DNA from: an uncultured Bacteroidales bacterium
GTDB lineage: Bacteria; Bacteroidota; Bacteroidia; Bacteroidales; P3
Length of the DNA stretch: 64,000 nucleotides
NCBI GenBank assembly: GCA_905234665.1
Contig: CAJOIV010000006.1
Coordinates: forward strand, 62,001 to 126,000
Direction of reading: 5' to 3'
This document shows, in pieces, positions 142 through 62,599 of this stretch. Position numbers and translations under genes: made by a program. The notes under the pieces were generated by a model. It was given only the letters and a program-made list of their open reading frames with translations. It ran no database searches and was not told where the DNA came from. The number at the start of each line of letters is the position of its first letter. Position 1 is the first letter of the stretch.

Positions 142-2758
142 ATGGGAAAGACTGCTGAGAACGACTCGCCGTTGATGCGGCAGCATGCCGAACTGAAGAG
201 GAGGTACCCCGACGCGGTGCTGCTGTTCCGCGTGGGCGACTTCTACGAGACCTTCGGCGAAGATGCCCGTCGCGCCTCGGCCATCCTCGGCCTGACGCTG
301 ACGCGCAAGGCCAGCGGGGGTGGCGGATACACCGACCTGGCAGGCATTCCCCACCATGCCATCGACCAGTATCTCCCGCGGCTTGTGCGGGCAGGGCTGC
401 GCGTGGCCATCTGCGAGCAACTGGAAGACCCCAAGACCGTGAAGGGCCTCGTGAAACGCGGCATCACCGAGCTGGTGACGCCGGGCGTCTCCTACACCGA
501 CACGACGCTGGAGGTGAAGGAGAACAACTTCCTCTGCGGCCTCCACCTGACGGACAAGGTGCACGGCATCTCGTTCCTCGACATCTCCACGGGCGAGTTC
601 TGCCTATATCGACAAACTGATGCAGAACTTCCACCCCGCCGAGGTGGTGCTGCAGCGAGGCAAGCTGCACTGGTTCCAGGATCATTTCCCCGAGAAGTAC
701 TATACCAACACCTTCGACGACTGGGTGTTCACCTCGGACTATGCCCACGAGCTGCTGCTGAAACAGTTCGGCACGGCCTCGTTGAAGGGCTTCGGCGTAG
801 AGGACCTGACGATGGGCATCGTGGCCGCCGGCGCGGTGCTGCAATATCTGCAGGACACCCAGCACGACCGTACCCAGCATATCTGCAAAATCAACCGCAT
901 CGACGAGTCGCGCTATGTGTGGCTCGACAAGTTCACCGCCCGCAACCTGGAGCTAGTACACTCGCCCAACGAGCGTGCCCGCACCTTGCTCGATGTCCTG
1001 GACCAGACCTCCACCCCCATGGGGTCGCGCCTCCTGCGCCGCTGGATAGTGATGCCGCTGAAGGACCCCCAGGCCATCGAGGAGAGGCTGAAGGTGGTGG
1101 ATTACCTGGTGCGCAACCGCGATTTCGCCATCCAGCTGCTCCAGCAGATACGGGCCATCGGCGACCTGGAGCGCCTCATCTCGAAGGTGGCCGTCGGACG
1201 CATCAACCCCCGTGAACTGCTTCAGCTGCGCCGTGCGCTGGAGGCTGTGGGGAAGATACAGGCGCTATGCCAGTCCACGGGTGAAGAGACCTGGACGCGC
1301 ATCATGGGGCGGCTGAACGCCTGTAAGGAAATCAGCGACCGCATCGGGCGCGAGATACAGGAAGACCCGCCCGTCAAGGTGGAGAAGGGCAGTGTGATAG
1401 CCCCCGGCGTGAATGCCGAGCTGGACGAGCTGCGCGGCATGGCGGGGTCGGGAAAGGAATACCTCATGCGTCTCCAACAGCGCGAGGTGGAACTGACAGG
1501 CATCAGCTCGCTGAAGGTGGGCTACAACAATATCTTCGGCTACTATCTGGAGGTCACCAACACCCACAAGGACAAGGTGCCGGAGACCTGGATACGCAAG
1601 CAGACCCTGACCAACGCCGAGCGTTATATCACCCCCGAATTGAAAGAGTACGAGGCTAAAATCCTCGGTGCCGAGGAACGCATCCTGGCCCTTGAGGCCC
1701 AACTGTACGAGCAGCTGCTCTCGGCATTGATGAACTATGTGGAGCCCATCCAGTACGATGCCCAGATTGTGGCACAGACGGACTGCCTCCAGAGTTTCGC
1801 CGAGGTCTCGTTGGCCAACAACTACTGCCGTCCCGAATTGGGCGACGACCGCATTATCGATATCAGGGAAGGCCGTCACCCCGTCATCGAGACGCAGCTG
1901 CCGCTGGGCGAGCAGTATATCAGCAACGATGTGCTGCTGGATCCCGATAGTCAGCAGATTATCATCATCACCGGTCCCAACATGTCGGGTAAGTCGGCCC
2001 TGCTCAGACAGACGGCCCTCATCGTGCTGATGGCGCAGATGGGCTGCTATTGTCCTGCCCGCAAGGCACATATCGGTATGGTCGACAAGATATTCACCCG
2101 TGTGGGTGCGTCGGACAACATCTCGTCGGGCGAGTCGACCTTCATGGTGGAGATGAACGAGACGGCGAGTATCCTGAACAACATCTCCGACCGTAGCCTG
2201 GTGCTGCTCGACGAGATAGGCCGCGGCACCTCGACCTACGACGGCATCTCCATCGCCTGGGCCATCACCGAGTATCTCCACAACCAGAAGAAGGCACGGC
2301 CCAAGGTGATGTTCGCCACGCATTATCACGAACTTATCGAGATGGCCGACCAGTATGAGCGCATCCGCAACTACCATATCTCGGTGCGCGAGGTGGACAA
2401 TAAGGTTATCTTCCTCCGCAAGTTGGAAGAGGGTGGCAGCGAACACAGCTTCGGCATCCATGTGGCCCGCATGGCCGGCATGCCCCAGCAGGTGCTGAAA
2501 CGTGCCAACACCATGCTGGAACTCTTGGAGTCGAAGAATGAAGCCATCAGTGAGAAAGGCAAGAAGTCCGCCGCCACCGGCAAGAAACAACCCAAAGAAG
2601 TCCCCGCCGATGGCTACCAACTCAGCTTCATTCAGTTAGACGACCCCACCCTCCTGGAAATCCGCGACAAACTCCTCGACATAGACATCGACTCCCTCAC
2701 CCCCCTCGAAGCCCTCTTGAAACTCAACGAGATCAAGAAACTCGTCGGCAAAAAGTGA
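142..2758 (+). pseudogene. mutS: DNA mismatch repair protein MutS, frameshifted
   Basis: MutS binds mispaired bases and, with ATP, recruits MutL. The first part (from ATG 142) carries the mismatch-reading motif GDFYETF. At about nt 600-605 the homology leaves this frame after ISTGEF and resumes one frame on with YIDKLMQNF, continuing to the stop at 2758. The second part has the clamp and lever regions, a Walker A motif (GPNMSGKS, near nt 1975) and Walker B ([14 protein letters not shown], near nt 2205). The two parts together come to about 870 residues, normal for the family. The junction seems to lack a few residues compared with E. coli MutS, which fits a small deletion of 3n+2 bases. Either this is a sequence error or the strain is a mutator. 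Product identity is certain; the integrity of the gene is not. Confidence 0.9.
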
Positions 2759-2762
2759 CGCA

Positions 2763-2881
2763 ATCAAAAAGAATGTGTATATTTGTAGTAAACAACGGGC
2801 AATAGGATATTGGTGCAAACATTTAAGGACAAGAAGGATAGAGTAAAATAGAATGCTCGAAAAAAGACGTAAAAAAGCAAG
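2763..2881 (+). promoter_or_regulatory. Promoter/leader repeat, copy R1
   Basis: First of three similar segments of about 110 bp (others at 3456 and 4321). It contains a -7 box TATATTTG and a shared downstream block (CAATAGGATATT, then GGACAAGAAGGATAGAG, then AAAGACGTAAAAA). It would give an untranslated leader of about 100 nt in front of the antitoxin-like gene at 2889. No clear -33 box is seen in this copy. Confidence 0.7.
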
Positions 2882-3444: not shown

Positions 3445-3455
3445 TCTCTTGCTCA

Positions 3456-3572
3456 TTCAAAAAGAATGTGTATATTTGTAGCGGACAAAAGACAATAGGA
3501 TATTAACACAAACGGCTAAGGACAAAACAGATAGAGCAATAATAGGACAGTAAGATAAAGACATAAAAAAAG
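3456..3572 (+). promoter_or_regulatory. Promoter/leader repeat, copy R2
   Basis: Second copy of the leader repeat. It has the best promoter of the three: TTG, 19 bp, TATATTTG, matching the Bacteroidetes housekeeping consensus. The following block (CAATAGGATATTAACACAAA, GACAAAACAGATAGAG, AAAGACATAAAAA) is nearly identical to copy R3. It drives the MNT-HEPN pair. Confidence 0.75.
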
Positions 3573-4315: not shown

Positions 4316-4320
4316 TGCTT

Positions 4321-4422
4321 AATCCAAAAACTTTCGTATATTTGTAGCAGACAACAGACAATAGGATATTAACACAAACAACTAAAGACAAAACAGATAG
4401 AAGTAAAATAAAGACATAAAAA
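4321..4422 (+). promoter_or_regulatory. Promoter/leader repeat, copy R3
   Basis: Third leader copy, with TATATTTG at about 4336-4343 and the same downstream words as R2 (CAATAGGATATTAACACAAA, GACAAAACAGATAGA, AAAGACATAAAAA). Here it leads not into a toxin-antitoxin gene but directly into a strongly structured non-coding segment. Confidence 0.7.
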
Positions 4423-9842: not shown

Positions 9843-10511
9843 ATGATAAGAATCCTTGTGGTCGACGACGAGCAGGACCTGTGCGAGATTCTGCGTTTCA
9901 ACCTCTCGGGCGAGGGGTTCGAGGTCACTACGGCCAACAGCGCTGAGGAGGCAATGGAGAGACTGCGCGAGGAAGGACCTTACGCCCTTATCCTGCTGGA
10001 TGTGATGATGGACCGCATGTCGGGCACCGAGATGGCGCGCCTCCTGCGGGCACAGGGCGACGAGACCCCCATCATATTCCTCACCGCCCTTGACGCGCAC
10101 GACGACCAGATAGAGGGGTTCGAGGCCGGAGGGGACGACTATATCACCAAGCCTTTTGCCTTCGACACCGTGCTGGCGAGGGTGCGGGCCGTGCTGAAAC
10201 GCACGCAGCCCCGCTCGGTGCAGAGCTTCGGGGCGCTGGCGATAGACGCCGACCGCGGTCAGGTGTTGCTGAACGGGGAGCCCGTCGGGTTGACCCGCAG
10301 GGAGTATCTGATACTCTCTCTGCTGGCGCAGCATGCGGGGGACTACCTCAGCCGCGAGGAGATATTGAACCGGGTATGGCCCAACGACACGTATGTGAAC
10401 GACCGCAGCGTGGATGTCCATATCGCACGCCTGCGTAAGAAACTGGGGCCCGAAGGCGGGCGTATTGTGAACAAGACGGGATTCGGATACACGTTGAAAA
10501 TTGAGAATTGA
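9843..10511 (+). CDS. OmpR-family response regulator
   Basis: 222 residues: receiver domain (acidic pair D9-E10 after VVDD, phospho-acceptor D53 in LLDVMM, switch T and K105-like lysine in GGDDYITKPF) and a C-terminal winged helix (GEPVGLTRREYLILSLL to DVHIARLRKKLG) that binds DNA. It is the partner of the histidine kinase that starts at 10612. ATG 9843 is used; a GTG at 9837 lies inside the T-rich tail of the terminator. The short leader has no clear ribosome binding site. The target genes cannot be told. Confidence 0.93.
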   Translation: MIRILVVDDEQDLCEILRFNLSGEGFEVTTANSAEEAMERLREEGPYALILLDVMMDRMSGTEMARLLRAQGDETPIIFLTALDAHDDQIEGFEAGGDDYITKPFAFDTVLARVRAVLKRTQPRSVQSFGALAIDADRGQVLLNGEPVGLTRREYLILSLLAQHAGDYLSREEILNRVWPNDTYVNDRSVDVHIARLRKKLGPEGGRIVNKTGFGYTLKIEN

Positions 10512-10526
10512 GAATTGAAAATTGAA

Positions 10527-10578
10527 AGACACACTCCTCAGTCACTCCGTGACCGCTCCCCTAACTTAGGGGAGCAGC
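10527..10578. repeat. REP-like palindromic repeat, copy 1
   Basis: AGACACACTCCTC is followed by a small hairpin (GTCAC-TCC-GTGAC) and a larger one (GCTCCCCTAA/TTAGGGGAGC, 10555-10575). A second copy at 62551 has the same outline with paired base changes in both stems. Just upstream, 10500-10525 is a tandem of GAATTGA-type words. Confidence 0.8.
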
Positions 10579-10611
10579 TGGCTGTCGCACCACTTAAAAC
10601 TTAAAACTCAA

Positions 10612-11457
10612 ATGACAATTATTCTTATCATCATAGGCATCTTGCTGGTGGCGTCGGTGACGATGGCCATTCGGTTGACGATTCAGGTGCGGCGGCAGCG
10701 GCAGCTGCGCGAAGAGGCCGAGACCTCGAAGCAACAGGCCCTTGCCGAACAGAAGCGCAACCAGCAGCTGAAGCAGGAGATGACCTCGAATATCGCCCAC
10801 GAACTGAAGACGCCCGTCAGCTCTATCAGGGGCTATCTGGAGATACTGCTGGGGGACAAGCCTATGGACGAGGGGCAGCGGCGCTATTTCCTGGAACGCT
10901 GCTACAGCCAGACCCTTCGACTGTCGAACCTCATCGCCGACGTGGCCCTTATCAACAAACTGGAGGAAGCCAACGACCTCTTTGAGACGAAACCCGTCAA
11001 TGTCAACGAGTGTGTCGAGGAGGCCATCGTGGAGCTCTCGCACCTGGCCGGGGAGCACAAAGTGGCTATCCACAACAGTCTGCCAGACGGCATGGAGATT
11101 GTAGGGGACAAGATGTTAATCTATACCGTCTTCCGCAACCTGTTAGAGAATGCCGTCACGCATGCCGGCGACGGGTGCGAGGTAACGGTGGACAGCTACC
11201 AGCCCGCCGACGGCGAGCGCTACTACCTGCGGGTGTACGACAACGGCAAAGGGGTGGCCAACGAGTACCTACCCAAGCTCTTCGAGCGTTTCGTGCGCAT
11301 CGACGAAGGCCGCAGCCGCAAGAACGGCGGCACTGGCCTGGGACTCTCCATCGTGAAGCACGCCGTGCAGCTGCACGGCGGCAGTGTCTATGCCAAGAAC
11401 CGGCCCGAAGGTGGACTGGAGGTGCTGTTCTCACTGAAACTAAAAGATAAAAACTAA
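10612..11457 (+). CDS. Sensor histidine kinase
   Basis: 281 residues. One N-terminal membrane helix (2-24) leads directly into a coiled linker, the HisKA domain with phospho-acceptor H63 (SNIAHELKTPVSS) and the HATPase domain with N box (FRNLLENAVTHAG), G1 (DNGKG) and G2 (GGTGLGLSIVKH). No periplasmic sensor domain is present, so the signal is probably membrane or cytoplasmic, or comes from a partner protein. It pairs with the response regulator upstream. The last residues (LKLKDKN) are encoded by a tandem AAAACTAAAAG-type repeat that runs on past the stop. Confidence 0.92.
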   Translation: MTIILIIIGILLVASVTMAIRLTIQVRRQRQLREEAETSKQQALAEQKRNQQLKQEMTSNIAHELKTPVSSIRGYLEILLGDKPMDEGQRRYFLERCYSQTLRLSNLIADVALINKLEEANDLFETKPVNVNECVEEAIVELSHLAGEHKVAIHNSLPDGMEIVGDKMLIYTVFRNLLENAVTHAGDGCEVTVDSYQPADGERYYLRVYDNGKGVANEYLPKLFERFVRIDEGRSRKNGGTGLGLSIVKHAVQLHGGSVYAKNRPEGGLEVLFSLKLKDKN

Positions 11458-12911: not shown

Positions 12912-12991
12912 AAAGTAAAAGCTAAAACCAGTCGAGTCCATGAAACGACCTCTCGTCCTTTTAGTTTTTAGTTTTTACCTTTTAGTTTCCA
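12909..12991. repeat. Inverted word repeat spanning the porT start
   Basis: A left arm of AACTAAAAAGTAAAAGC type (12909-12931) is mirrored with about two mismatches in 12960-12991 (TTTTAGTTT words). The right arm lies inside the coding region of the next gene and encodes the hydrophobic core of its signal peptide. Confidence 0.75.
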
Positions 12992-29858: not shown

Positions 29859-32249
29859 ATGAACGAAATCTACGCAAAACAGATACTCAAGATATTTGCC
29901 AACAATCCGTTCGAGACGTTCAACCACAAACAGGTGGCTTCTCGCGTAGGTGCCCACGACAAGGGCACCCGGCAGGTGGTGATGGCCACGATGGCCGAAA
30001 TGGCCGAGGAGAAAATCCTTGTGGAGGACTCGAACGCCCGTGGCAAGTACAAAATCAACCCGAAATACATCAACGACGACCTGCTGCCGCAGAACTACAT
30101 CGTCGGAGTCATCGACATGAAGCAGGGCGGCAAGGCCTACGTTATTCCAATGAGGAATGAGAAATTAGGAATTAGGAATGATGCGACATCCAATTCCTCA
30201 TTTCTAATTCCTAATTCCTCATTTGAAGAGGATATCCTCATCAAACCCAGTGACACCAACCACGCCCTGCATGGCGACACTGTGAAGGTGCGCATGTTCC
30301 CCCAGCGCAAGATGCACAAGCCGGAAGGACAGGTGGTCGAGGTGCTGGAACGGGCCCGCACCCGCTTTGTGGGAGTCATCCAGCGGCAGGACCGTTTCGC
30401 CTTCATGGTGAGCGACAACCGCACCATGACGGTGGACATCTTCATCCCGTTGAGCGACCTGAATGGCGCCGAGGACGGCGAGAAGGTGCTGGTGGAGATG
30501 ACCGACTGGCCCGACCGCATGAACAACCCCGTGGGGCGCGTCGTCAAACGCCTCGGTCGGCCGGGCGACAACAATGTCGAGATGCAGTCCATCCTGGCCG
30601 AGTACACCTTCCCGCTGGACTTCCCTGCCGAGGCGGAGAAGGAAGCCGAGAAGATTGAGCAGCCCACAGAGAAAGACTACGAAGGCCGCAAGGATTTCCG
30701 TCGTGTGACGACCTTTACCATCGACCCCGCCGACGCCAAGGACTACGACGACGCCCTCTCGTTCCGCGCCATGAAAAATGGCAACTATGAGGTGGGCGTG
30801 CATATCGCCGACGTGTCGTACTATGTGAAGCCCGGCACAGCCCTCGACCGCGCCGCCTACGAGCGCGGCACCAGTGTCTATCTCGTCGACCGCACCATCC
30901 CCATGCTGCCTGAGAAACTCTGCAATGGGGTGTGCTCGCTGCGCCCGAACGAGGACAAACTCTGCTTCAGCGTGGTCATGGAGATAACCCCCGAGGCCAA
31001 GGTGGTGAAGCAGTGGTTCGGCAAGACCGTCATCAACAGCGACCACCGCTACTCATACGAGGAGGCGCAGGAGATTATTGAACAGGGTCAGTGTACTGCT
31101 GTCGACCCCACCGCCGCGGCCATTCTCGAGCTCCACAAGCTCGCCACCATACTCCGGCGGCAGCGTTATGCCGACGGAGCCATCAACTTCGAGAGTCAGG
31201 AGGTGAAGTTCATCCTCGACGAGAACGCCAAGCCCATCGGCGTGTATGTCAAGGAGTCGAAGGAGGCCAACTGGTTGATTGAAGAGTTCATGCTCCTCGC
31301 CAACCGCCTCGTGGCTGAAAAAGCCGGAAATACTAGTGGCACTAGTGCTACTAGTAAGACTAGAAACCCTCGCACCTTTGTTTATAGGGTCCACGACGAG
31401 CCCAACCCCGAGAAGCTCAATACCTTTGTCGAGTTCGTCGAGAAGTTGGGATTCAAGATGCGTCTCGGCTCGCGCAAGGCCCTGGCCACCTCATACAACA
31501 ACCTTTTCGAGACCATCGCGGGGCGCGGCGAGGAGCACATGATTGACACCATCGCCATCCGCACCATGGCCAAGGCCGTCTACAGCACCAACAACATAGG
31601 ACATTACGGGTTGGGTTTCAGATACTACACCCACTTTACCTCACCCATCCGGCGCTACCCCGACTTGATGGTGCACCGTCTGCTGGAACGTTACCTGCAT
31701 GGCGGCGCCTCGGTGAGTGCCGGCGAGTATGAAGAATACTGCCAGCACTGCTCCCTCATGGAAAAACGTGCCGCCGACGCCGAGCGCGCCAGCGTGAAGT
31801 ACAAGCAGGCCGAATTCCTCGGCGACAAAATCGGCGAGGTCTTCCCCGCGCTCATCTCGGGTGTCAGCAAGTGGGGCTTCTATGCCGAGATTGAGGGCAA
31901 CAAGTGTGAGGGCATGATACCCATCGGCAGCCTCAAGGACGACTATTATATGCTCGACGAGGACAACTACCAGATTATCGGCCGCCGCACAGGCAAGTCC
32001 TACAAGCTGGGCATGCCCGTCACCATCCGTGTCAAGGGTGTCGACATGATCAAGAAACTCATCGACTTCGAGCTCGTCGAAGAGCCGAAAGCCGGCTTCC
32101 GGCAGAGTCGTCAGCATGAGCCTCGTCCGCAGAGCCGCAAGGAGAAAGAGAAGAGGTCTTCCAAGTCAAAGAAGGAATCCTCCAAAGACAAGAAGACCAA
32201 GTCCCGCAAAGAGAAATCGTCAGCCAGCAAGCCCCGCAAGAAGAAATGA
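29859..32249 (+). CDS. rnr: Ribonuclease R
   Basis: 796 residues. 3'-to-5' exoribonuclease for structured RNA. Order: N-terminal winged helix (1-70), two cold-shock domains, the RNB catalytic domain (FTIDPADAKDYDDALS, with the metal-binding Asp cluster, and IPMLPEKLCNGVCSLRPNED), S1 domain (GVSKWGFYAEIEGNKCEGM) and a Lys/Arg/Ser-rich tail. Two in-frame repeat insertions are present: a palindrome in the first cold-shock loop (peptide RNEKLGIRN...NSSFLIPNSS) and a four-copy 9-bp tandem encoding TSG TSA TSK TRN before the RTFVYRVHDEP segment. Both keep the frame open. Confidence 0.96.
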   Translation: MNEIYAKQILKIFANNPFETFNHKQVASRVGAHDKGTRQVVMATMAEMAEEKILVEDSNARGKYKINPKYINDDLLPQNYIVGVIDMKQGGKAYVIPMRNEKLGIRNDATSNSSFLIPNSSFEEDILIKPSDTNHALHGDTVKVRMFPQRKMHKPEGQVVEVLERARTRFVGVIQRQDRFAFMVSDNRTMTVDIFIPLSDLNGAEDGEKVLVEMTDWPDRMNNPVGRVVKRLGRPGDNNVEMQSILAEYTFPLDFPAEAEKEAEKIEQPTEKDYEGRKDFRRVTTFTIDPADAKDYDDALSFRAMKNGNYEVGVHIADVSYYVKPGTALDRAAYERGTSVYLVDRTIPMLPEKLCNGVCSLRPNEDKLCFSVVMEITPEAKVVKQWFGKTVINSDHRYSYEEAQEIIEQGQCTAVDPTAAAILELHKLATILRRQRYADGAINFESQEVKFILDENAKPIGVYVKESKEANWLIEEFMLLANRLVAEKAGNTSGTSATSKTRNPRTFVYRVHDEPNPEKLNTFVEFVEKLGFKMRLGSRKALATSYNNLFETIAGRGEEHMIDTIAIRTMAKAVYSTNNIGHYGLGFRYYTHFTSPIRRYPDLMVHRLLERYLHGGASVSAGEYEEYCQHCSLMEKRAADAERASVKYKQAEFLGDKIGEVFPALISGVSKWGFYAEIEGNKCEGMIPIGSLKDDYYMLDEDNYQIIGRRTGKSYKLGMPVTIRVKGVDMIKKLIDFELVEEPKAGFRQSRQHEPRPQSRKEKEKRSSKSKKESSKDKKTKSRKEKSSASKPRKKK
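30149..30223. repeat. In-frame palindromic element inside rnr
   Basis: Two arms of 31 bp (30149-30179 and 30193-30223, starting AATGAGGAAT) are complementary with about four mismatches. Loop GATGCGACATCCA type. The element encodes RNEKLGIRN-DATS-NSSFLIPNSS between AYVIP and EEDILIKPSD. Two more copies lie in the DUF819 and coaBC genes. Confidence 0.9.
31332..31367 (+). repeat. Four-copy 9-bp tandem repeat inside rnr
   Basis: ACTAGTGGC, ACTAGTGCT, ACTAGTAAG, ACTAGAAAC in a row, in frame, encoding TSG-TSA-TSK-TRN. Confidence 0.92.
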
Positions 32250-33032: not shown

Positions 33033-33035
33033 GTA

Positions 33036-33130
33036 AATGTGTAAATGTGATAATGTGTGAGTGGCTGCCGCCCCACATACACATTCAAACACTTACACAT
33101 TCACACATTCAAACACTCACACATTCACAA
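33036..33130. repeat. Palindromic word repeat between the transporter and queF
   Basis: Tandem words of AAATGTG type on the left and CACATTC type on the right. The best arms are 33048-33063 and 33114-33129 (14 of 16 complementary). It ends one base before the queF start codon. Confidence 0.8.
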
Positions 33131-36373: not shown

Positions 36374-37549
36374 TTATGGGGCGAGGAGGAAGAAGAGGCC
36401 GAGGCCGATGTAGTTGCCTACCATGTAGCCGATGAGGCCGATGGTGATGCCGGGGACGATGACGTCCTTGTTGCCGAGGAGGCCGGCGACCAGGGGGACG
36501 AAGGGGGGCGAGTTGACAAGGGTGACGGAGGTGGTGAGCGTGAGGTCGCTGTCGAGTTTGACGAGGCGGGCGAAGAGTATCTGCAGGATGAGGGAGCCGA
36601 AGATGACGAAGGTGATGTAGGCAAGGATGTTGAGGCTGCCGCCGAGGTCCATCTGGCGCACGTCGCAGGCGTTGGCTATCGAGAAGCAGAAAATGTAGAT
36701 GAAGTAGAGCCCCATGGTGAAGGATTTGGACTGCTGGCCGGGGTCGTCATTCTGTGTGGCGAGGCGCACGAAGGGGAGGAAGGAAGCCCCGATGGAGAGG
36801 GTGGTGAGGATGAGGATGAGCATGGGGGTCGAGAAGTCGTCGGGGAAGAGGGTGGAGGCGAGGTAGGACACTGCGGCGATGACGAGGGTGACGGCGAGGG
36901 GGATGAGGATTAATGAGGAATTAGGAATTAGGAATGAGGAATTCTTTGATGCGTCAGCCGAATTACTAATTCCTAATTTCTCATTCCTAATTTCCAACTG
37001 CTTGGGCTTTGGGAGGAGTTTGCGGAAGAGGGGACGGCCGAAGAGGATGACAAAGACAAGGTAGAGGCCGGTGACGATGAGGTCGTAGGAGGTGATGAAG
37101 AGGTAGGTGCTCTGGTCCATGTCGACACCGCGGGCGATGGCGCCCATGTTGGGGATGCCGCCGGTGTAGATGCCCACCGAGACGGCGCAGACCTGTGCGA
37201 AATGCTTCGGGTCCTGTCCATTGCGGAAGAGGAAGTAGCCCGCCACAGTGACGATGAGTATGGCGGTGATGCCGCTGAGGAAGGCCTTGAGGGTGTTGCC
37301 TGCCGACCAGTTGCGCAGATTACAGGAGATGAGCATCAGCGGGATGGCCAGGGGAATGCAGAGGTTGCCGACAAAGGTGTTGGTTTCAAGCAGGGCCTGG
37401 TCCTGCAGCCATGGGGTGAGGTTGGCCACCAGAAGGCCGATGACATACAACACTGCCATCGGACTAACCTTGTCAATCCACGTCCATTTTCGGGCGAGGA
37501 GCATGACGGCAAGGGGGACACCGAGGAGGTAAAGAAGGTAGAAAAACAT
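36374..37549 (-). CDS. DUF819-family membrane transporter
   Basis: 391 residues from ATG 37549, chosen because upstream in-frame sequence is the antisense of uvrA. About ten membrane helices; family landmarks are VSVGIYTGGIPNMGAIARGV, CNLRNWSAGNTLKAFLSG and, near the end, GNKDVIVPGITIGLIGYMVG. DUF819 proteins are thought to be sodium-coupled or organic-solute carriers; the substrate is unknown. A palindromic element is inserted in frame in the central loop (QLEIRNEKLGISN...NSSFLIPNSSL). Last gene of the bamD-to-DUF819 run. Confidence 0.85.
   Translation of the reverse strand: MFFYLLYLLGVPLAVMLLARKWTWIDKVSPMAVLYVIGLLVANLTPWLQDQALLETNTFVGNLCIPLAIPLMLISCNLRNWSAGNTLKAFLSGITAILIVTVAGYFLFRNGQDPKHFAQVCAVSVGIYTGGIPNMGAIARGVDMDQSTYLFITSYDLIVTGLYLVFVILFGRPLFRKLLPKPKQLEIRNEKLGISNSADASKNSSFLIPNSSLILIPLAVTLVIAAVSYLASTLFPDDFSTPMLILILTTLSIGASFLPFVRLATQNDDPGQQSKSFTMGLYFIYIFCFSIANACDVRQMDLGGSLNILAYITFVIFGSLILQILFARLVKLDSDLTLTTSVTLVNSPPFVPLVAGLLGNKDVIVPGITIGLIGYMVGNYIGLGLFFLLAP
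36912..36992. repeat. In-frame palindromic element inside the DUF819 gene
   Basis: Arms 36912-36943 and 36961-36992, about 32 bp each, nearly complementary, loop CTTTGATGCGTCAGCCG. On the gene strand it encodes IRNEKLGISN-SADASK-NSSFLIPNSS. The opposite strand is also open. The loop is almost the same as in the coaBC copy. Confidence 0.9.
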
Positions 37550-37571
37550 GGCTGACGAGGATCTTTGGTTT

Positions 37572-40386
37572 TTACCTTTTGGTTTTTTCCAGTTCCTCTT
37601 TGAGGAATTGGGCGGTGTAGTTGTCGGGTTGCTGGGCGAGGTCTTCGGGAGTGCCGTTGAAGATGACCTGTCCGCCTGCGCGACCACCGTCGGGACCCAT
37701 GTCGATAATCCAGTCGGCCACCTTGATGACATCCATGTTGTGCTCGATGACGAGGACGCTATTGCCTTTGTCCACCAGACGTTGCAGCACCTCCAGCAGC
37801 ACGCGGATGTCCTCGAAATGGAGGCCGGTGGTGGGCTCGTCGAGGATGTAGAGCGTGTTGCCCGTCTCGGGGCGGGCCAGTTCGGTGGCCAGCTTGATGC
37901 GTTGTGCCTCGCCGCCGCTGAGGGTGGTGGACTGCTGCCCGAGGGTCAGGTAGCCAAGGCCCACCTCCTGCACGGTCTTCAGCTTCCGGTAGATGCGGGG
38001 GTACGACTCGAAGAACTCCACGGCCTCGTTGACGGTCATGTCGAGCACGTCGGCTATGCTCTTGCCCTTGTAGCGGATTTCGAGGGTCTCGCGGTTGTAG
38101 CGTTTGCCGTTGCACATCTCGCAGTTGACGTACACGTCCGGCAGGAAGTTCATCTCGATGGTGCGCACACCCGCGCCCTTGCAGTGCTCGCAGCGTCCGC
38201 CGCTGACATTGAATGAGAAACGGCCGGGCTTGTAGCCGCGGATGCGTGCCGAGTTGGGTGAAGAGTTGGCGTATCTCGTCGAAGACGCCCACATAGGTGG
38301 CGGGGTTGCTGCGGGGGGTGCGCCCGATGGGCGACTGGTCGATTTCTATGACCTTGTCGATATGCTCGATGCCTGTCACGCTGCGGTAGGGCAGGGGGGC
38401 TTTCTGGGCATGGAAGAAATGCTGGTTGAGGATGGGGTGGAGGGTCTCGTTGATGAGGCTGCTCTTGCCGCTGCCGCTCACGCCGGTGACGCAGACGAAA
38501 CGGCGCAGGGGGACGTCCAGCGTCACGTCCTTCAGGTTGTTGCCTGTGGCGCCCTCCACCACGAGGTGGTCGCACCCCTCCATCGGACGGCGCACGGGGA
38601 TGGCGATGTCCTTATGGCGGTAGAGGTAGTCGAGGGTGAGGGACCCGCTGTCGGGGCCTACATTCTTTGGGGGCTTGCCTGCGAAGATAATCTTGCCGCC
38701 GTGGACACCCGCGCCAGGGCCGATGTCGACGAGGTAGTCGGCGTTGAGCATCATGTCGCGGTCATGCTCCACGACGATGACACTGTTGCCCAAGTCGCGC
38801 AACTCCTTGAGTGCCTCGATGAGGCGGTGGTTGTCCCTCTGGTGGAGTCCGATGCTGGGCTCGTCGAGGATATAGAGCACGTTGACCAGCTTGGCCCCGA
38901 TTTGAGTGGCCAGGCGGATGCGCTGGGACTCGCCGCCCGAGAGGGAACTGCTGTTGCGGTTCATCGAGAGGTATCCCACCCCCACGTTGATCATGAAGCG
39001 GGTGCGGTTCAGGATCTCGCGCAGTATCTCGTGCGCCACGGTGCGCTGCTGTGGCTCGAGGCGGTCCTCGAGGTGTTCCAGCCGCTCGTAGAGTTCGAGG
39101 AGGTCCATCTCGGCCATCTGGCCGATGTGCAGGCCGTCGATTTTGAAGGCCAGGCTCTCGGGCTTCAGCCGGTAGCCCTGGCATTCAGGACAGGGGACGG
39201 TGTTCATGAACGATGTCGCCCATTTCTGCAGGGCTGCGGAGCTCTCGTCCGAGGCCATCTGCATGATATAGTTCACAATGCCCGGGAAACTGTTGCCGTG
39301 GTTCATCTCGTAGGCATCCTCCATGCCTGTGTAGTTCGAGGTGCCGTAGAGGATGGTGTTCATCGCGTCTTCCGAGAGCTTCTCCACGGGGTCGTCGAGG
39401 GTGAAGTGGTAGTATCGCCCGAGGTTCTCCATCTTGCGGTAGAGATAGTTGGTGGGGCTGTATTTCCCCAGCACCTCGAAGGCGCCGTCGCGGATGCTCT
39501 TCTTGGGGTCGGGGATAAGCTTGGCCAAGTCCAGCTGGGCTATCTTGCCGAGGCCGTTGCACTTGGGGCAGGCTCCGTAGGGCGAGTTGAAGGAGAAGGT
39601 GTTGGGCTCCGGCTCTGGGTAGGAGTGTCCCGTGGCGGGGTCCATGAGCAGGCGGCTGTAGTAGGCGGGCTTGGCCAAGGGGGTGTTCTCCAGCACCATG
39701 AGGACTCCTTTGCCCTGTTTGAAGGCGGCGCGCACAGCCTCCTTGAGGCGGTCGTTGGTCCTCCCCACGCGCACGCGGTCGATGACCAGCTCGATGTCGT
39801 GGGTCTTGTAACGGTCCACCTGCATGTTGTAGGTCAGTTCCTTAATCTCTCCGTCCACGCGCACGCGCAGATATCCTTTCTTGGCCACCTGGGCGAAAAG
39901 CTCGCGGTAGTGTCCCTTGCGGCTCTTCACCAGGGGGGCGAGGATGACGACGTCCTTGCCGTCGTACTGCTCGTTGATGAGGTGGAGAATCTGCTCCTCG
40001 GTGTATTTCACCATGCGCTCGCCGCTGACATGCGAGTAGGCCACGCCGACGCGGGCGTAGAGCAGGCGCACGAAGTCGTATATCTCGGTCACCGTCCCCA
40101 CCGTCGAGCGGGGGTTCTTGTTGGTGGTTTTCTGTTCGATAGAGATGACGGGGCTGAGTCCCTTGATGCTGTCCACGTCGGGGCGTTCGATGTTGCCGAT
40201 GAAGTGTCGTGCGTAGGCCGAAAACGTCTCCATGTAGCGGCGCTGGCCTTCGGCGTGGATGGTGTCGAAGGCGAGGCTGCTCTTGCCGCTGCCGCTGAGG
40301 CCGGTGAAAACCACCAGCTGGTTGCGGGGGATGTCGATGTCGACATTCTGCAGGTTGTGTTCGCGGGCTCCGAGTATCTCAATCAT
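37572..40386 (-). pseudogene. uvrA: UvrABC excision nuclease subunit A, frameshifted
   Basis: UvrA scans for DNA damage as an ATPase dimer. The first frame (from ATG 40386) contains Walker [17 protein letters not shown], zinc-finger-type CPKCNGLG and CPECQGY, signature SLSGGESQRIRLA and the second Walker A GVSGSGKSS. It runs to [11 protein letters not shown]; at about 38250 the homology moves one frame on with [20 protein letters not shown], then signature [13 protein letters not shown], and ends at 37572. The family normally has PEAK or PEAR at the junction, so a 5-bp loss (CCCGA type) would explain it. The second half lacks its own start. Whether real or a sequence error cannot be told. The start overlaps the transglycosylase stop. 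Confidence 0.92.
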
Positions 40387-41357
40387 AACGATGTCACAGG
40401 ACTGGTGTCGCGGTGGCCGTGGGTGAGGGTGCGGTAGAGGGTTCCTTTCTCCACGGGCATCTTGAGGTTGTAGCTCTTGCCGGCCTTGTTGGTGATGTGG
40501 TCGGTCAGCAGCCAGGGGTTGAGCGTGCGCACCATGCGGTAGGTAGTGCCGTTCTGTTTGGCCACATGGTAGAGGTCGATGTTCTTCCCCTCAATGGTGA
40601 CGGTGCGCGTGGGGATGGGGGGGAAGAGGTCGCAGTGGCGCAGGTGGTAGCCGTAGCGTGCGGGGTTCTGCATGATGGTCTTCATGGCCAGGATGCGGTA
40701 GACGTAGCGCGAGGTCTCGGTGTTGAGCAGCAGGTCGTAGTAGTTCTTGATGCTCTGCAGGTCCATGCGTTTGGCGAGACCGTTCTCGCCGCAGTTGTAG
40801 GCGGCGGCGGCCGCTGTCCAGCTGCCGAAACGGTTGTAGAGGCTCTTGATGTATTTGCAGGCCGCCTCGGTCGAGGCTTCCAGGTTGTTGCGCATGTCCA
40901 CCTCGTCGTTCACCTCCAGCCCGTAGGTGGTGCCGGTGCTCTTGATGAACTGCCAGAATCCCTGTGCCTTGGCGGGCGACGTGGCATTGGTCAGCGCGCT
41001 CTCGATGACGCAGAGGTATTTGAAGTCGTCGGGGATGCCGTTCTTCTTGAGAATGGGCTCGATGACGGGGAAATAGCGTCCGGCGCGTTTGAAGCACATC
41101 ACCGTGGCCGACTGGCGGTACATGTTCACCACCAGTTCGTTGTCCAGCGCTTCGCGCACATAGTAGGTCTCCATCGGCACCCGCTCGCCCGCGAAGGTCA
41201 GCGTGTCGGGCAGCACGGGGGCATAGACATGGTAGTCGGCCATGATGGCCCGCTGCAACAGGGCCTCGCTGTCCTCTTTCTTGGTGGCGAAGATAAAGGC
41301 CTCGCCGGCGATGGCCACAACGGCGAGGATGATGGCGGCGATGGAGAGACGCTTCAT
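40383..41357 (-). CDS. Membrane-bound lytic transglycosylase (MltD-like)
   Basis: 324 residues. N-terminal membrane anchor ([20 protein letters not shown]). SLT domain: catalytic Glu in [15 protein letters not shown], then [38 protein letters not shown] and AAYNCGENG. It cleaves peptidoglycan glycan strands. The C-terminal region ([20 protein letters not shown]) resembles a single degenerate LysM. The start overlaps the coaBC stop and its stop overlaps the uvrA start. Confidence 0.88.
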
Positions 41358-42580
41358 TGCAGGCACCTCCTCACTATTTCCCGTGCCACGTCGGCCTTGC
41401 TCAGCAGGGGAGTCTCGGTGCGGCTGCCGTCGCGCCCGATGATGGTCACGCGGTTGGTGTCGACGCCGAATCCGGCCCCCTTGTCGCGCAGCGAGTTGAG
41501 GACTATGTAGTCCAGGTTTTTCTTCTCGAGTTTGCGGCGGGCGTTTACCTCCTCGTCGTCGGTCTCGAGGGCAAAGCCCACGAGGCGCTGGCCCTCCTGC
41601 TTCATGGTGCCGAGGGTGGCCAGGATGTCGGGGTTCTGCACGAGGGTGAGGGTCATGCCCTCGTCGCCCTGTTTCTTCAATTTATGGTCGGCGGTGTGGT
41701 CGGGCCGGTAGTCGGCCACTGCGGCCGAGAGGATGGCTGCGCAGCAGGTGGGGAAGAGGCGTGTGGCGGCCTCGTACATCTCGCGGGCGCTCTCCACGTC
41801 GGTGCGGTGGATGTTGGGATGCTCTGCACGGCATGCCGTGGGACCCGTCACCAGTTCCACCCCGTAGCCTTCGGCGGCCAGCGCCTCGGCCAGCGCAAAT
41901 CCCATCTTGCCCGACGAGTAGTTGCCGATGAAGCGCACCGAGTCGATTTTCTCGTAGGTGGGTCCGGCGGTGACGAGCACCTTGGATAATGAGGAATTAG
42001 GAATGAGGAATGAGGAATTATTTGACTCGTCAGCCAAATTCCTAATTCCTAATTTCTCATTCCTAATTGCCGAGGCTATATCCTCAGGCTCGGCCATGCG
42101 TCCTGCCCCTGTGGCGCCGCAGGCCAGCTCGCCCTCGGCGGGGGCGATGATGTTCACCCCGCGGGCCTTGAGGGTGGCGAGGTTCTGCTGCACGGCGGGG
42201 TGCTCCCACATGTCGGTGTTCATGGCGGGGGCCAGGTAGAGGGGTTTGTGGCTGAAAGCCAGCAGGAGGGTGCTGAGGGCGTCGTCGGCGATGCCCGAGG
42301 CCAGCTTGCCGATGCAGTTGGCCGTGGCGGGGGCCACCACCATTATGTCGCCCCAGTCTTTCAGGGCGATGTGCTCGGTGCTGTGGTCGTTGACGGGGGC
42401 GAAGAGTTCGGAATACAGGCGGTTGCCCGACACCGTCTCCAGCGTCAGGGGCGTGACGAACTCCAGGGCGTGCCGGGTGGCGACACACTGCACCTCGTGC
42501 CCCTGCTTTTTCAGCAGACGCACCAGCTGCGGCGCCTTATAGGCCGCGATGCCTCCGGTGATGCCGACAATGACGCGCAT
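41354..42580 (-). CDS. coaBC: Bifunctional phosphopantothenoylcysteine decarboxylase/synthetase
   Basis: 408 residues, coenzyme A synthesis. The N-terminal CoaC flavoprotein half has GITGGIAAYKAPQLVR, the PxMNxxMW motif as PAMNTDMWEHPAV and the Cys flap near GELACGATGAGRM. The C-terminal CoaB half has VLVTAGPTYEKIDSVRFIGN, SSGKMGFALA and GFALETDD. A palindromic element is inserted in frame exactly in the linker between the halves (IRNEKLGIRN...NSSFLIPNSS), where extra residues should be tolerated. The start follows the rpoZ stop directly. Confidence 0.96.
   Translation of the reverse strand: MRVIVGITGGIAAYKAPQLVRLLKKQGHEVQCVATRHALEFVTPLTLETVSGNRLYSELFAPVNDHSTEHIALKDWGDIMVVAPATANCIGKLASGIADDALSTLLLAFSHKPLYLAPAMNTDMWEHPAVQQNLATLKARGVNIIAPAEGELACGATGAGRMAEPEDIASAIRNEKLGIRNLADESNNSSFLIPNSSLSKVLVTAGPTYEKIDSVRFIGNYSSGKMGFALAEALAAEGYGVELVTGPTACRAEHPNIHRTDVESAREMYEAATRLFPTCCAAILSAAVADYRPDHTADHKLKKQGDEGMTLTLVQNPDILATLGTMKQEGQRLVGFALETDDEEVNARRKLEKKNLDYIVLNSLRDKGAGFGVDTNRVTIIGRDGSRTETPLLSKADVAREIVRRCLQ
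41988..42068. repeat. In-frame palindromic element inside coaBC
   Basis: Arms 41988-42019 and 42037-42068, loop TTTGACTCGTCAGCCA. On the gene strand it encodes IRNEKLGIRN-LADESN-NSSFLIPNSS. Confidence 0.9.
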
Positions 42581-43800: not shown

Positions 43801-43937
43801 CACTTTTTTTTTCATTCTCCAACATTTTTCTTCCCGACATCCTTCTTTTATTATGTACCGCACCCCGGTTTCCCTGCACTCTCGCCACGGCTTCGCCCCG
43901 GGCTCGGAGCGGGCTCGGTTCTTCTTCGATTTATCTT

Positions 43938-44005
43938 CGTTTGTTCTTCGATTGTTCTTCGTTTTCAAAACGGAATACAATCGAAGAACAATCGAAGAAC
44001 AAACG
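43938..44005. repeat. Perfect 24-bp inverted repeat
   Basis: Arms 43938-43961 and 43982-44005 are exact complements built of TTCTTCGATTG words, separated by 20 bp. It lies in the 372-bp gap between divergent bamD and guaA. Confidence 0.93.
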
Positions 44006-44127
44006 GCGAACAAAACAGCCCGCACACAAGGAGTGGCAAAAGAGCTGTGGGACAGGGGAGAGGGAAGGGAGAAAATAAAAAAAAGCCTTTTTGGGGGAAG
44101 AAAATTCGTGGATACAAATATTTTTTG

Positions 44128-62550: not shown

Positions 62551-62599
62551 AGACACACTCCTCCGGCCTTTCAGGCCACCTCCCCTAACTTAGGGGAGG
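62551..62599. repeat. REP-like palindromic repeat, copy 2
   Basis: AGACACACTCCTC, small hairpin GGCC-TTTCA-GGCC and larger hairpin CCTCCCCTAA/TTAGGGGAGG (62579-62599). Same layout as 10527 with compensating base changes. A T run follows at 62614-62619, so it may serve as a terminator on the + strand. A GTTGAAAGTTGA-type word repeat follows at 62620-62652. Confidence 0.8.

Follow-up and report, generated by a model that had tools for sequence, protein, structure and literature searches.

A palindromic repeat with tandem-array arms inserted in frame in conserved genes of an uncultured Bacteroidales genus

We describe a short palindrome that stands in frame within conserved protein genes of one uncultured Bacteroidales genus, and that is probably a non-autonomous repeat spreading by copying. 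Its copy in rnr, the gene of RNase R, lies in a window of 64,000 nucleotides (the whole stretch of DNA analysed), the features of which are collected in Table 1. Spread by copying accounts best for the data, since unrelated genes and different species have a core and unequal arms in common; we infer it from these copies together with the empty sites of orthologues. In-frame palindromic insertions in conserved genes are best known from Rickettsia, and the same habit is now seen in gut Bacteroidota.

Table 1. Palindromic elements, their host genes and related array-armed repeats in the window
Feature	Position	Strand	Remarks
AATTGAR heptamer array, REP-like centre with CTCCCCTAACTTAGGGGAG, then ACTTAAA units	10494..10612	.	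at two-ORF junction
rnr (RNase R), host gene, 796 aa	29859..32249	+	Pfam OB_RNB, CSD2, RNB, S1
Palindromic element in rnr	30149..30223	+	left arm 30149-30179, centre 30180-30192, right arm 30193-30223
Array-armed palindrome, 8-bp units (AATGTGTR type), GGCTGCCGC centre	33033..33129	.	at ORF start
DUF819 gene, host	36374..37732	-	Pfam PF05684
Second copy, in DUF819 gene	36912..36992	- (sense on minus strand)	88% identity to rnr copy over 75 nt
coaBC, host gene	41354..42580	-	Pfam
Third copy, in coaBC interdomain linker	41988..42068	-	Flavoprotein 1-173, DFP 199-381, insert residues 171-198 (Pfam)

The element in rnr is an inverted repeat of 75 nt, a multiple of 3, with 31-nt arms around a 13-nt centre. 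On the sense strand, a 31-nt arm of AATKAGR heptamers is followed by a GC-rich core and an inverted heptamer arm. As the initial annotation had proposed, the palindrome is real and in frame, with nothing comparable after shuffling; its wording of a near-perfect palindrome was generous, as only 27 of the 31 arm positions are complementary. The reading frame of rnr is uninterrupted, and the insert adds about 25 residues to the protein, also as proposed (RNEKLGIRN-DATS-NSSFLIPNSS; the general peptide of the AATKAGR element is IRNEKLGIRN-SADAS-NNSSFLIPNSS). The insert stands where the first OB/cold-shock domain begins; the best Pfam OB_RNB stretch has its first residue at 115. A predicted structure of RNase R is of low confidence (mean pLDDT 52.5, pTM 0.27) and could not support a fold search; in it, residues 102-121 appear unstructured between strands 93-97 and 126-128. 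This weak model, the interdomain position in coaBC and the length variation among orthologues make it plausible that the insert forms a surface loop.

The two further copies in the window, in the DUF819 and coaBC genes, encode nearly the same peptide in the same frame and sense orientation as in rnr (IRNEKLGISN-SADASK-NSSFLIPNSS and IRNEKLGIRN-LADESN-NSSFLIPNSS, respectively), which agrees with the earlier reading. Related copies, for which a search had been advised, were found elsewhere in this genome and in congeners: a fourth AATKAGG-type copy of this genome lies at about 19096-19173 of L047, within a DUF3109 gene, and the congener G007 has a fifth in mutS2. These five copies are 75 to 83 bp long and 83-93% identical over 75-81 aligned nt, a figure partly inflated by arms made of a common repeat unit. 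In all five, AATGAGA is the second left-arm unit, the arms are unequal in the same way, and sense and frame are identical; the agreement in orientation would arise by chance in about 1 case in 16. The fullest form of the core, TCGGCTGACGCATCAAAG, is that of the DUF819 copy. Each strand of each of the five copies has exactly one open frame, and the antisense opening that had been noticed in two window copies in fact extends to all three.

A sister form carries AATTGAR arms around a core common with the AATKAGR form. The exact 14-mer AATTCGGCTGACGC gave 27 matches in 16 of 120 genus genomes, and its reversed control gave none. At 23 of these loci an open frame encodes N-S-A-D-A; one of them (L301), without arms and resembling a native protein match, was excluded, which leaves 22 in-frame elements within ORFs, including the DUF819 copy of the window. 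Nineteen of the 22 are two-armed and three (L297, L306, L313) have a left arm only, while of the remaining four loci, L296 lies at the edge of its contig and L304, L308 and L311 lack a sense ORF. Hosts include LeuRS, HtpG (two genomes), MnmA, NqrA, QueG, CobW, MazG, ThiF, metallo-hydrolases, an ABC transporter, glycosyltransferases and, in another loop, the RNase R of G015. A 27-residue peptide query hit 25 places, all of them in this genus and spread over 11 of the 41 genomes; some hits were weak, and several of the weak places (e.g. L218, L220, L221, L237, L238) showed no element on reading. The core peptide SADAS is retained across arm types. The core taken as a perfect 16-bp palindrome, GGCTGACGCGTCAGCC, proved unspecific: it was found in 21 of 41 genomes with at most two mismatches, and the reversed control was also found in many. 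The nearest rnr loci in named collections come from uncultured Bacteroidales of rumen, deer, horse, sheep and similar samples; the congener G013 shares 5,337 bases at full identity with a contig of Candidatus Colimorpha onthohippi, which stands in Bacteroidales incertae sedis. The genomes of the relatives are drafts.

Alignment of the host genes with their orthologues, the check that had been suggested, revealed empty sites. Among 98 distinct rnr orthologues (from 109 fetched rnr loci) the loop has 4-6 residues in 90 and 12 or more in eight, none of which is the AATKAGR element. In L076, and likewise in L132, the loop holds a different insert, both ends of which resemble inverted arrays. Among the nearest RNase R proteins, P0001 (97% identical) is filled, P0002 and P0003 (91%) have no insert, and P0006 (80%) has another insert with the core SADAGNN. 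The coaBC loop, judged by eye in 30 aligned loci, looks native in 22 and holds repeats in the locus of the window and in seven others (G001, G002, G006, G007, G015, G019, G022), each of the seven akin to another unit family. At the site of the DUF819 element, P0242/P0243 (95% identical) carry a 9-bp-type repeat. The protein alignments (P-numbered homologues) cover the first 45 of the 120 listed homologues per gene. Since other public contigs also encode the inserts of rnr (P0001) and coaBC (P0122-P0126), and shuffled sequence yields no tandem-armed palindromes, an assembly artefact or chance is scarcely credible, even for a draft assembly with 5.62% contamination and for repeats prone to mis-assembly.

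No target site duplication was recognised at rnr, coaBC or MnmA, where the alleles compared are distant, and in these same distant comparisons native loop residues appear to have been replaced at the element sites. Within species, no presence/absence of the element and no filled/empty pair with near-identical flanks was found. No clean gain of a heptamer palindrome occurred in 22 rnr-locus pairs of at least 85% identity; these pairs contained nine indels of at least 24 nt, of which one is a run of N, and L116/L146 hold arrays of unlike units at the same place. The second extra loop of rnr (window 31332-31366) is built of 9-bp ACTAGTNNN units (NTSGTSATSKTRN), with a similar loop in P0002 and different ones in P0003-P0005.

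It could be argued that all these insertions are old, inherited at a fixed set of loops and rewritten only by gene conversion, with no new sites entered. The same gene and site are indeed filled in G002/G019 and in G019/G015, the HtpG site is filled in both G077 and G121, and the coaBC, DUF819 and MnmA loops have turned over repeatedly. We nevertheless consider this quite improbable: the rnr loop is empty in most orthologues as well as in its closest sister proteins (91% identical), and the four copies of this genome stand in four different genes.

The MnmA loop holds repeats of many types. Among 30 loci, a 43-residue native segment was present in 12, and the other 18 were non-native. Arms are of AATTGAA type in G070, GGAGAGT type in G051, REP-like in G007 and GTAGTGG type in G109; octamer arms enclose KADMSNT or SADATNT in G080 and G112; GTGGACA arrays occupy G008 and G023; single arrays occur in others (G002; G124, G049, G056, G073, G081; G078); and in G010 and G121 the loop is longer without a clear repeat. 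The loop of G107 is a chimera, with a left arm of AATTGAA type and a right half equal to that of G051 over 56 nt, between flanks that are 80-84% identical. AATTGAR arrays are common in the G107 genome (46 matches) and CTCTCCA arrays rare (2), as if the left arm of an older element had been overwritten. The case is clear but single, and the direction of the change is deduced from these sequences. At MnmA of G107, then, the two arms of one element have separate histories, and other sites suggest the same. Unit families are patchy in the genus: CTCTCCA arrays occur in 19 of 120 genomes, AATTGAR arrays in 69 of 120 (82 matches in this genome) and AATTAGG-type arrays in 8 of 41. At the coaBC, DUF819 and MnmA loops, the repeats differ from species to species. 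The Rickettsia-like reading stands and gains a further point: the arms are exchangeable repeat 'dialects'. We put forward only tentatively, and regard as somewhat unlikely, the wider proposal that recurring housekeeping loops are rewritten lineage-wide, the arms being overwritten singly and in frame by the dominant repeat dialect of each genome. If true, loop rewriting would mean that a family of coding repeats evolves in concert under a yet-unrecognised copying activity. In any case, species of one genus show a given loop as empty, with a single array, with a full palindrome or with a chimera, a natural series in which to ask how an element enters genes, keeps the frame and changes, and how new protein loops originate.

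Many of these arms belong to repeats that are abundant far beyond the coding copies, a larger array-armed set of which the coding element appears to be the stop-free branch. The initial annotation, borne out in part by the copies, the empty sites, the kept frame and the Rickettsia parallel, had missed the tandem-array nature of the arms, their change of sequence between species at one site and these intergenic relatives. In a genome sample of 448,483 bp (the window plus L031-L050, 16.8% of the assembly) we counted 32 tandem-armed palindromes with a score of 14 or more, against none after shuffling in 60-bp blocks, and 149 arrays with a period of 7 to 22 bp, where shuffled sequence had 7. Array-armed palindromes are also intergenic, and arrays often stand singly, with no inverted partner. 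Of the 113 arrays of 7, 8, 14 or 16 bp, 34 lie within a predicted gene at a depth of 30 bp or more. Cores sit between arms: GGCTGNCGC adjoins the inner side of 15 of the 113 arrays and the outer side of none, and CTCCCCTAA the inner side of 12 and the outer side of one. Among neighbouring arrays within 160 bp, the order G-rich to C-rich was found 25 times and the reverse twice, in addition to four like-oriented pairs and ten with an unoriented partner; were both orders equally likely, 25 against 2 would have a chance of about 6 in a million. As a trait of the genus this order was dropped, the rnr loci of relatives (1.39 Mb) giving 12 against 9.

The sample holds further repeats. The REP-like palindrome CTCCCCTAACTTAGGGGAG (window 10556-10574 and 62580-62598) lies within a larger repeat and adjoins heptamer arrays. 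Between divergent genes, window 43918-44013 is a palindrome of 11-bp units (CGAAGAACAAT), a family also present at L032:13532, L036:12909, L038:6676 and L039:16088. AATTGAR arrays directly follow the apparent signal peptides of two different ORFs (L038:15361, L049:1485), and a 95-nt repeat occurs three times (window 2757-2851, 3450-3544 and 4316-4410) with 74-82% identity to the middle copy. Four identical 30-nt arrays of CTAAAAG type stand near the starts of different ORFs (window 12959-12988, L042:17557, L044:14030, L045:8896); copying is therefore indicated for them, and not growth in place.

Inside and outside genes, the arrays differ in composition. A pure AATTAGG array has TAG in every frame once it reaches three units, and the arrays within predicted genes are mixtures of AATGAGG and AATTAGG, with T at position 4 in 0.50 of units versus 0.81 outside. 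With genes called by our own hexamer scorer (77% of the sample; coding and intergenic counts are approximate), the purine strand is open in 17 of 18 arrays inside genes versus 4 of 12 outside. Part of this openness is built in by gene calling, because the purine strand is the coding strand in 12 of the 18. For the six in which it is non-coding, five are open, the exception being L044:19506 (AATTGAG type); random unit mixing would leave about half of the arrays open. Selection acting on insertions would fit the openness of in-gene arrays, and so would descent from a stop-free master.

The abundance of unit families across the genome raises the question of whether the palindromes arise in place, slippage growing an array in a permissive loop and strand switching adding an inverted arm, without any movement. 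Partnerless arrays occur even at the same loops as palindromes, and slippage itself is seen in the coaBC protein P0127 (99% identical), in which seven right-arm residues are missing. Such an origin is unlikely, however, in view of the non-repeat core and unequal arms common to unrelated genes of different species. Spread by copying would instead proceed as follows. Each copy consists of the short GC-rich core and two inverted arms, each of about four to five short, mostly 7-bp units. An enzyme or a recombination pathway working in trans would copy existing elements into new sites. Most insertions into coding sequence would be lost, and the survivors would be those in permissive loops and with an open frame. 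Recombination between repeats, or template switching from one to another, may replace arms; slippage by three units (21 bp), a step size that the P0127 sequence suggests, would be tolerated within genes.

We also considered whether the element is kept for a function, either as an RNA hairpin (pausing, stability) or as a peptide. The RNA folds are strong: the rnr copy has z -5.04, with 0 of 200 shuffles equally good, and four copies range from z -3.75 to -5.49; the constancy of SADAS would likewise suit a selected peptide. Against this, unit sequence, peptide and presence vary between close species, as in P0242/P0243 with their other repeat, and the host genes have no common pathway, so that we regard a function as highly improbable. 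Rather than a selected peptide, the roughly 25 added residues are most likely padding that the proteins tolerate. For annotation, this means that stretches such as NSQFSILNSQ, KLKIENSADA or RNEELGIRN can derive from a repeat.

No description of this family in Bacteroidales, and no occurrence of six element peptide strings, was found in the literature searched, in which subscription papers are thinly covered; this agrees with the earlier statement that none was known. The parallel with Rickettsia palindromic elements (RPEs) drawn at the outset is apt. RPEs and Wolbachia palindromic elements are described as lying in frame within conserved genes as well as between genes, with the insert solvent-exposed, and different types occur at or near one position of orthologues (PMC3767692, PMC2229807). 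Compared by description only, the Bacteroidales element likewise is an in-frame palindromic repeat in conserved protein genes, but it belongs to another phylum, its arms are tandem arrays of short units that vary by species, and it measures 75-83 bp versus the 105-146 bp given for RPEs (PMC2229807). For Correia/NEMIS elements and enterobacterial MITEs, again compared by description, a stop-free form is reported within genes and a stop-bearing form between them, as with the arrays here (PMC2229807); these elements have defined ends and target duplications, whereas none were recognised in the Bacteroidales element. With terminal inverted repeats and no transposase coding capacity in 75-83 bp, the latter resembles MITEs in these two respects. 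In the Bacteroidales species Porphyromonas gingivalis, the BrickBuilt MITE also combines tandem repeats with a small inverted-ended element, but its units are 23-nt direct repeats and its position is always intergenic (PMC4596501). Nematomorpha mitochondrial genes contain inverted repeats as well; there, both arms encode conserved protein regions, whereas the Bacteroidales palindrome is extra sequence (PMC6649704). Intragenic REPs of the GTAG and CGTC families are palindromes within ORFs that add 20 to 30 residues, several of them in tRNA synthetase and repair genes (PMC3733652), but differ in their shorter units, their tag and their RAYT transposases. By reading, the GTAG or CGTC tag at the stem is absent from the five aligned AATKAGG-type copies. 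Heptamer tandem repeats also include LSSR5-11 and the cyanobacterial STRR. Like these simple repeats and those of TAACTGA type, the element arms are tandem arrays of short units; the coding copies differ from lone arrays by their common core and inverted arms, while many other arrays of the genome do stand alone. The TAACTGA heptamers form arrays of 7-bp units, some overlapping gene ends, in genomes that include five Bacteroidetes, but they are direct, mostly intergenic and without a core and inverted arms (PMC4679880).

Phage carriage found no support, as two patterns gave no matches in viral contigs, and Rfam at gathering scores returned seven tRNAs and nothing else over the window. A search of Y1 transposase genes yielded no candidate mobilising enzyme: such genes occur in 31 of 41 genomes without a visible tie to the element, and neither of the two in this genome is flanked by it, in contrast to a REP/RAYT arrangement. 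Both local genes, the only ones inspected, sit among other repeats, and Y1 transposase was rejected as the mobiliser. These two genes (L195:1801-2421 and L196) are accompanied by palindromic repeats of their own (GCGTGCCTCCGGCACGC; GGGCGTACACGGGGGTACGCCC) and resemble REPtrons.
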